Shown piece by piece: positions 30,725 through 34,771 of a stretch of DNA of 34,771 bases; within the stretch, counting starts at the first letter, position 1, and the number at the start of each line of letters is the position of its first letter. The position numbers were made by a program, and so were the translations under genes. The stretch is taken from NCBI GenBank assembly GCA_944386635.1, contig CALXBV010000072.1, positions 1-34,771 of the forward strand, in the 5' to 3' direction. The stretch is from an uncultured Clostridia bacterium (GTDB lineage Bacteria > Bacillota > Clostridia > TANB77 > CAG-465). The notes below the pieces were generated by a model. It was given only the letters and a program-made list of their open reading frames with translations, searched no databases and was not told the DNA's origin.

Positions 30725-31957
30725 TTAATTATCTTTACTAAATATTTTATAACTAGTTGGTACTAGCTTAAAAGATTTAAATAAAGTATTACCATTTATT
30801 ATTTTACATTTTTTTTCATTAGAATTGCTATTATAAATTCTATATATGTAATAATTATTTTTATGTGATTTTGCAAATTCTAATTCATTACTTGTAATAT
30901 CTATAGGAGTATTTTCATTTCCTTTAGTGGATTTTACTTCTATATATTTTTTATGAAATTTACCATTTTTATCTAAATCAAATGATAAAATATCAAAGCC
31001 GTCACTATCTTTTCTATTATTAAAAAAATTTTTCATTATTTTCACTTTATCAGTTGCACCTAAATTAGCTACTTTATTTAATTCATAGTTAAATATTATT
31101 TCTTCATTAATATTCCCTTGCATAGTATTTACAATTTCTGAAGAAATATAATCTTTGTTTGCAGATGAGTTATTTCCATTATAATTCTTATTATATTTCT
31201 TTATTTTTATTGGTTTATCTATAAACGTTATATCCTTTTTATCATTAATAATATTTATATCATCTTGTATATTTTTTAATGTTTCTAAATATATGTATTG
31301 TGCTTTGTTGTTTATTATATTTAAAGGAAATTTATAAATAATTTTGCTATTAGTAGTTACTGTAAATGGAGCACCCTCTAAGAAGCATTCTCCTTTATAT
31401 ATATAAGTATTTTTATCTTTTAAAAATAAGTATATTGGTAAATCATTTTTTAAAGAATTAGTTAAATATACAATATTATTTTCTGAATTTGAACTATCAA
31501 TTTTCTTTTCAATAGTATATAGTAGTCTTTCATTTTCTATTTTTGAAGTATTATCATTATTTTGCATTATTAAAACTAAAGTGTAGGTATAATATGAAAT
31601 ATTTATTTCTTGATTAATATCAATTTTAAAGATTTTTTCTAATTCATTTAAGCTAAAAAATTGGTCAATTTTTAAAGATTCTATTTTTTTTATATTGTCA
31701 AAAAAATTCGACTTCCATAATCCACTACCTATTTTTTTTGAAGAGAATAGATCTGCTTTATTAGTATATGACTTACACTCTTTACAATGCTCTTCGAGAG
31801 TTCTTCTAATACTAGATCCTTTATTTGGATTTGTCTTCTGCCTTATTTTTTCAACTTCTTTATAAATTTCATTTAAGCTTATATATTCATTTTTACTTTT
31901 TCTATGCAAAACATTAAGTGCTTGTAGAGTTACATATGGCATTTTATCATATTTCAT
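30725..31957 (-). CDS. DUF3883 protein, putative restriction-type nuclease
   Basis: 410 residues in three parts. The N-terminal part (1-80) has a winged-helix look and the segment [13 protein letters not shown]...[13 protein letters not shown], a pattern seen at the start of many restriction-type proteins. A middle part (about 95-235) includes [11 protein letters not shown]. The C-terminal domain (about 285-395) matches DUF3883: [23 protein letters not shown] (Asp322) and KYIEVKST (Glu340, Lys342), giving a D...ExK PD-(D/E)XK nuclease centre. Related proteins act in defence against foreign or modified DNA. No methylase or other subunit is near, which suggests a solo modification-dependent enzyme or a remnant. 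AAAGGAG precedes the ATG. Codon use is as AT-rich as its neighbours. Confidence 0.7.
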
Positions 31958-32117: not shown

Positions 32118-32251
32118 AATCTCTGTCTTATTACGTGATATATATTCTTAATTAATAGAAATTATAGCAATTTTGCTAATATAAATAAATTGTACGGATA
32201 TAAAAGTTATGTTATTGCAGATTGAAAATTTTATAGTGAAGGAGAGATTTA

Positions 32252-34138
32252 ATGGAAGAAGATAATAACAAAAGTAAAAGTACTTCTAGAACTAAAAAAG
32301 GGTCTAGTAGTAGTAAAAAAACAAATAGTATCACAACAAAATTAAAAAAAGATACAAAGGAAAAATTAAAAAAATCTAAAGATAAAGAAATAATTATTGA
32401 AAATATTAAACAAGAAGAAGTTAAGGAGACTGCCAAAAAGGAGAAAGCCAAAAATAGTATTTTTGCAAAATCTAAATTAAAGATAATACCTTTAGGTGGC
32501 TTAAATGAAATCGGTAAAAATTTAACCGTATTTGAGTATGAAAATGATATAATTGTAGTAGACTGTGGATTAGCTTTTCCAGAAGATGAAATGTTAGGAG
32601 TAGACCTTGTTATACCAGATATTTCATATCTAGAAAAAAATAAAGAAAAAGTAAGAGCAGTGTTAATAACACATGGACATGAAGATCATATAGGAGCTAT
32701 TCCATATTTTTTAAAGAAAATTAATGTACCAGTTTATGGAAGTAAACTAGCATTAGGATTAATAAAAGTAAAACTTGAAGAACATAACTTAGATAAACAA
32801 ACAAAATTAGTAACTATAGAGCCTAGACAGACTTTTAAATTTGGCAAATTTAAAGTAGAGTTTATTAGGGTAACTCACTCTATAGCTGATTCTATGGCAA
32901 TTGCTATAACAACGCCTGTTGGAACAATACTACATACAGGAGATTTTAAAGTAGATTATACACCTATTGATGGAGGATATATAGATTTACAAAGAATAGC
33001 AGAACTTGGTAAAGAGGGTGTAACATTATTATTATCTGATAGTACTAATGTTCAAAGACCAGGGCATACTATGTCAGAAAGAAGTGTTGGTAAAGAATTT
33101 GATAGACTATTTACTAATTGTAATAAGAGAATAATCGTTGCAACTTTTGCTTCAAATGTACATAGGATGCAACAGATCATTAATTCAGCTGTAAAATTTA
33201 AAAGAAAAGTTGCAGTCGTTGGACGTAGTATGGTAAACGTTCTTGGAGTTTCTCAAGAACTTGGATATTTAAATGCGCCAGAGGGAACAATAATAGATGT
33301 AGATAAAATAGGAATGTATAATCCCGAACAATTAGTTATAATAACTACAGGATCTCAAGGAGAGCCAATGGCTGCTTTATCACGTATGTCTGCTGGTGAG
33401 CATAAAAAGGTTCAAATAACACCGGATGATATGATAATTTTTTCTTCATCTGTTATACCAGGAAATGAAAAGTCAATTGGTAGAGTAATAGATGAACTAG
33501 AAAAGCTAGGTGCTGAAGTTATATATAGCCAAATAGCTGATGTTCACGTTTCAGGACACGCTTGTCAGGAAGAATTAAAGTTAATGTTAAGTTTAGTAAG
33601 ACCTAAATATTTTATGCCGGTTCATGGTGAGTATAGATTTTTAAAACAACATGGTCAACTTGCAGTTGATACAGGTGTTCCAAAGGAAAATGTATTTATT
33701 ATGGAAAATGGTAGAGTATTAGAAATAGATAAAAATAGTGCTAAGATGACTACACAAGTTACATCTGGTATTGTATTAGTTGATGGCTTAGGTGTTGGAG
33801 ATGTTGGTAATATTGTCTTAAGAGATAGACAATTACTATCTGAAAATGGTATGATAATAGTAGTTATGTCATTAGATAGAAAAACAGCTAAAGTTGTATC
33901 TGGTCCTGATATCGTAACACGTGGCTTTGTATATGTAAGAGAAAACGAACCACTTATTGATGAAATAAAAGATGTAGCTAAAAAAGAGTTAAATAAATGT
34001 GAAGAACAAAATATACATGAATGGTCAACTATAAAAACAAGACTTAGAGAAACATTAATAAAATATATATATGGAAAAACAAAAAGACAACCAATGATAC
34101 TTCCGATTTTAATGGATGTAGATATGGATAAAAAATAA
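32252..34138 (+). CDS. rnj: Ribonuclease J with a basic N-terminal extension
   Basis: 628 residues. The core starts near residue 73 (KLKIIPLGGLNEIGKN) and has the metallo-beta-lactamase site THGHEDHIG (His141, His143, Asp145, His146), TILHTGDFK, the beta-CASP motifs SDSTNVQ and FASNVHRMQQ, SGHACQEEL and PVHGEYR, plus the C-terminal domain. RNase J combines 5' exonuclease and endonuclease activity in mRNA decay. Family members have about 555 residues; the first 72 here are Lys/Ser/Thr/Glu-rich, probably disordered, and may contact RNA. It is unclear from sequence whether this is the J1 or J2 type. ATG follows AAGGAGAG; gltX begins 23 nt after the stop. Confidence 0.94.
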   Translation: MEEDNNKSKSTSRTKKGSSSSKKTNSITTKLKKDTKEKLKKSKDKEIIIENIKQEEVKETAKKEKAKNSIFAKSKLKIIPLGGLNEIGKNLTVFEYENDIIVVDCGLAFPEDEMLGVDLVIPDISYLEKNKEKVRAVLITHGHEDHIGAIPYFLKKINVPVYGSKLALGLIKVKLEEHNLDKQTKLVTIEPRQTFKFGKFKVEFIRVTHSIADSMAIAITTPVGTILHTGDFKVDYTPIDGGYIDLQRIAELGKEGVTLLLSDSTNVQRPGHTMSERSVGKEFDRLFTNCNKRIIVATFASNVHRMQQIINSAVKFKRKVAVVGRSMVNVLGVSQELGYLNAPEGTIIDVDKIGMYNPEQLVIITTGSQGEPMAALSRMSAGEHKKVQITPDDMIIFSSSVIPGNEKSIGRVIDELEKLGAEVIYSQIADVHVSGHACQEELKLMLSLVRPKYFMPVHGEYRFLKQHGQLAVDTGVPKENVFIMENGRVLEIDKNSAKMTTQVTSGIVLVDGLGVGDVGNIVLRDRQLLSENGMIIVVMSLDRKTAKVVSGPDIVTRGFVYVRENEPLIDEIKDVAKKELNKCEEQNIHEWSTIKTRLRETLIKYIYGKTKRQPMILPILMDVDMDKK

Positions 34139-34161: not shown

Positions 34162-34771
34162 ATGGAAATGATGGATAAAGATTATGAAAGAAAATGTTAT
34201 GAACTTGCATATTTAATATTTCCAGATGTCGATGAGACTGTTGATGATTTAGAGATTAAATATCCTGAAAGAAATGACTTAAAAGCTGACGCAAAAGTTG
34301 TAAGAATTGGGCCTTCTCCAACAGGACTTATGCATACTGGAACACTATTTCAGGCTATGATTAATAAGAAACTTGCTTCTCAAAGTGATGGCGTATTTTA
34401 TGTTAGAATAGAAGACACAGATCAAAAAAGAGAAGTAGAAGGTGCTGTAGAAGAGATTATAGATGGATTAAAGCATTTTGAACTAATGCCAGATGAAGGT
34501 GTAGTTGGAAAAGATAAAGAAATAGGATATTATGGTCCATATACGCAATCTAAAAGAAGAGATATTTATAGAGTATGTGCAAAGCATTTAATTGAGATTG
34601 GTAGAGCTTATCCTTGTTTTTGTACACAAGAAATGTAGAAAAAAACACATGATGCGCAAGTAGCTAATAAATTAGTACCTGGATATTATGGAGTTTATGC
34701 TAAATGTAGAAATATTTCTATAGATGAATCAATAGAAAGAGTAAAAAGAGGGGAGAAATTTATATTAAGAT
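34162..34771 (+). pseudogene. gltX: Glutamyl-tRNA synthetase gene with an in-frame TAG, truncated by the window end
   Basis: The product follows the clostridial GluRS with a 45-residue N-terminal extension (ELAYLIFPDVDET...IKYPERNDL) and has the class I signature IGPSPTGLMHTGTLFQA (HIGH-like MHTG), VFYVRIEDTDQKREV, YGPYTQSKRRDIY and AYPCFCTQE. A TAG at 34636-34638 stops the frame after 158 residues, but the same frame continues KKTHDAQVANKLVPGYYGVYAKCRNIS to the window end. The spacing from CFC to PGYYG equals that of intact relatives, so TAG replaces one amino acid (Leu or Ile position) with no indel. Start ATG 34162 follows AAGGAG. The enzyme is essential unless a second copy exists elsewhere. 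Confidence 0.8.

Follow-up and report, generated by a model that had tools for sequence, protein, structure and literature searches.

The GluRS gene gltX, which is interrupted at the end of the contig described here, raises the question of whether an uncultured Clostridia bacterium makes an essential enzyme through an in-frame TAG, or whether this TAG belongs to the assembly and not to the cell. The window, by which is meant the whole stretch of 34,771 nucleotides that was analysed, corresponds to one entire contig, C72, of a draft genome that amounts to 1.46 Mb in 105 contigs and is 77% complete. Judging from its named relatives, which are mostly metagenome-assembled uncultured Clostridia, the draft genome is probably metagenome-assembled as well. 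The comparison covered 27 further genomes of the genus, and gltX was found in 24 of these. The features that bear on the question are presented in Table 1. Far from gltX, at 947-1506 on the minus strand, the window carries two short ORFs, one of which matches the start of PDDEXK_2 (PF12784); from their sequence these PDDEXK_2-type ORFs look like a decayed nuclease-family transposase.

Table 1. Coordinates in the window of gltX, its upstream neighbour and the sequence features around the in-frame TAG.
Feature	Position	Strand	Remarks
rnjA (RNase J), neighbour upstream of gltX	32252..34138	+	colinear with gltX in G013
gltX codons 1-158, N-terminal GluRS catalytic domain with PSPTGxxHxG (HIGH-like)	34162..34635	+	TIGR00464 and PF00749 matches; dN/dS 0.035 vs G013
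in-frame TAG, codon 159; aliphatic (or methionine) codon in 24 relatives	34636..34638	+	
cluster of four adjacent mismatches vs the nearest relative, G013	34636..34639	+	includes the start of the A run
gltX from codon 160, still in register, truncated where the contig ends	34639..34771	+	
seven-A run directly 3' of the TAG; its last A opens the contig overlap	34639..34645	+	
terminal 127 bases, the same sequence as the end of G000:C8 (20899-21025, reverse strand)	34645..34771	+	k=127 assembly-graph overlap

The preliminary description stated that codon 159 of gltX is TAG, and the in-frame reading of 34162-34771 bears this out. The frame gives 158 GluRS residues, then the TAG, then 44 residues in register before the contig ends 133 bases past the stop. 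That both sides of the TAG follow the GluRS register was likewise correct, and the spacing from CFC to PGYYG is exactly that of the 24 relatives. When the GluRS of the window was searched with the stop written as X, another piece came up at the very end of a second contig of the same genome, C8, where residues 162-203 are matched at 100%; from there C8 carries the frame on for 410 stop-free codons to the normal end of gltX. The two pieces match TIGR00464 in consecutive ranges of the profile (4-102 and 110-468) and score 109 and 164.5 bits, each piece being partial, where the cut-off is 289.95 and the intact orthologue in the nearest relative, G013, scores 295.3. Both GluRS motifs are present, PSPTGLMHTG in the window and KLSKRK (KMSKS-like) on C8, and the TAG sits between them, within the catalytic-domain hairpin CFC...YxxxC. 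In order, spacing and motifs the gene is thus the same as the TIGR00464 GltX of the 24 genus genomes, and it has the same neighbour, rnjA (checked in G013). What sets the copy in the window apart is the TAG at codon 159 and its division between two contigs.

C72 and C8 both align colinearly with a single stretch of G013 at about 90% identity, and for this reason they are taken to be true neighbours. The G013 sequence compared ends at about window position 32195, short of a gene for a NOV_C domain (PF13020) protein of 410 aa, which lies on the minus strand at 30725-31957 between tRNA-Gln and rnjA. On C8, downstream of gltX, a 194-aa ORF (G000:C8 19020-19604, minus strand) carries the sequence HPFREGNGRT, recognised by eye, which we take to be a Fic-family motif.

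The 127 bases shared by the two contigs are the maximal exact overlap and lie at the ends of both; among the contigs of the bin only C72 and C8 carry this 127-mer, and the TAG is located seven bases upstream of it. An exact overlap of 127 bases is the signature of a branch point in a k=127 assembly graph. It has been described that metaSPAdes and MEGAHIT leave overlaps of maxK length at the points where contigs are broken by multiple paths, and that the causes of the extra paths include within-population variation and sequencing errors (COBRA paper, PMC10914622). The present case is like these in that two contig ends have one exact 127-base sequence in common and the gene is joined in frame across it; 127 is a common maximum k. 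The competing path is absent from the bin. Neither the start of the window nor the other end of C8 has a 127-base sequence in common with any contig of the bin, so that a single overlap underlies the k=127 reading. Two arrangements of the branch are compatible with this. With several paths entering the 127-mer, the competing path would differ from the window at 34644, six bases past the TAG, and the variation or error would then sit right at the TAG site. With several paths leaving the 127-mer, the variation would be found beyond 34771 and the TAG would lie close to the overlap by coincidence.

All 24 genus genomes in which gltX was found have an open frame through the region with CTA, TTA, ATA, ATT, ATG or GTA at the position of the TAG (CTA in G013), and the residue is always aliphatic or methionine; TAG occurs in 0/24. 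In each of them gltX is intact and single copy. In G017 and G026 a stop inside gltX was flagged and rejected, the TAA lying directly upstream of the start codon and outside the gene. In three further genomes of the genus, G005, G009 and G012 (93-96% complete), gltX was not found and the adjacent RNase J gene gave weak matches only; the genes may be missing from the assemblies, may lie in sequence that was withheld, or may really have been lost.

The preliminary description made its case dependent on the frame after the TAG being conserved in relatives. This was checked and is so: the 24 relatives are open, and the part of the gene on C8 is under purifying selection. Compared with G013, the part before the TAG has a dN/dS of 0.035 and the C8 part one of 0.095; compared with G010 the values are 0.047 and 0.111. 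The whole gltX has been under purifying selection, so that any loss of function would be very recent.

The 610 bases of gltX in the window differ from G013 at 60 sites. Outside the four adjacent differences at the TAG these sites are scattered, with 48 in third, 7 in first and 1 in second codon positions. A run of four adjacent differences turned up in 0.5% of simulations using the observed codon-position rates and in 4.5% of plain permutations, both figures having been computed after the fact, and these statistics suggest something other than an ordinary point substitution at the TAG site. It had been proposed that a TTG was changed to TAG by one base. This is at variance with the comparison, since no relative has TTG and G013 differs at all four bases of 34636-34639. 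The more general proposal of a sequencing error fared better: an error is the best supported of the options that had been put forward, as an assembly or strain-variant problem at the branch point and not as an error of one base.

GluRS is normally essential, and the TAG had been thought to imply, among other options, a second GluRS gene or suppression. Neither option found support in the 77% complete draft. Apart from the two pieces of gltX nothing in this genome matches PF00749, and a search with the C8 part gave no further match. Elsewhere in the genus there are other weak PF00749 matches, to frames of about 440-480 aa with none in this genome; they look like other class I synthetases and are probably CysRS. 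A search with RF00005, read with ARAGORN, gave 32 tRNA genes in the 77% complete genome, including tRNA-Leu(caa), and 0/32 have a CTA anticodon, while for PylS only sub-threshold matches of 18.6-21.3 bits were obtained against a cut-off of 178. It should be noted that the genome is incomplete, so these absences are weak evidence. RF1 is present (prfA, 541 bits) and TAG ends 7 of the 21 genes checked in the window, in agreement with the earlier view that a genome-wide recoding of TAG is unlikely. That UAG is decoded as an amino acid in gltX by a suppressor tRNA, by pyrrolysine machinery or by a local recoding can be argued only from the in-frame TAG itself and from the fact that at 77% completeness a tRNA may be missing. 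Against it stand the anticodons, the PylS scores, RF1 and the genes ending in TAG, together with relatives that need no UAG at this site, and we regard such decoding as very improbable. We likewise give very little credence to a TAG which is real and fixed in the species, with the sole GluRS made by efficient read-through of a UAG that is a normal stop elsewhere.

The main rival is that some or all members of the sampled population really carry a nonsense allele of gltX, which would be recent and either deleterious or tolerated by a low level of ordinary read-through; such an allele would probably be a minority or transient one. The intact frame on both sides and the low dN/dS are as expected of a very recent event, and in-frame stops have been widely reported in conserved prokaryotic genes, where they were attributed to read-through and found to be mostly short-lived (PMC7918605). 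The TAG in gltX resembles those stops in that the frame around it is conserved and dN/dS downstream of it is low, and differs from them in adjoining an assembly break and in interrupting an enzyme of which the search gave no second gene. The absence from the draft of another gene for a normally essential enzyme speaks against the allele, as do the 24 relatives without TAG, the four adjacent differences from G013, which are not a simple point mutation, and the place beside a graph overlap, which suggests assembly trouble; on balance we find the allele unlikely. A GluRS consisting of two polypeptides, divided at codon 159, seems to us the least probable of the explanations. An internal ATG downstream could in principle start an ORF of 346 residues, but this ATG lies about 64 codons into the C8 part and its use would leave a conserved stretch of the catalytic domain untranslated; the split would moreover fall inside the hairpin between the HIGH-like and KLSKRK motifs, and no relative has a split gene.

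Most probably, then, the TAG arose where the contig breaks, as an artefact of assembly, of reads or of strain mixture, and is not a feature of the functional gltX of the living cell. The TAG is located in the last unique bases of the contig, just before the 127-base sequence common to the next contig, and the local sequence most likely comes from an erroneous or minority path, produced by read errors, by strain mixture or by a defective minority allele. The organism itself would most likely have one ordinary intact gltX, of which the assembled copy is split between C72 and C8. We infer that a variant at the TAG site gave rise to the branch and that the dominant reads have a sense codon here. 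Counted in favour of an artefact are the TAG beside a k-length overlap, the intact continuation on C8, the 24 single-copy relatives, the four-base cluster and a draft which is 77% complete in 105 contigs. Counted against it are that the branch could lie after 34771, which would make the nearness of the TAG a coincidence, that the TAG-bearing contig was the one kept, so that some reads must carry the TAG, and that a four-base cluster is not typical of a single Illumina error.

Should the TAG be real after all, an essential aminoacyl-tRNA synthetase would depend on stop-codon read-through, which would be a surprising control point. As it stands, the case is a useful warning: where an in-frame stop lies close to the end of a draft contig, one should look for k-length overlaps with other contigs before calling recoding.
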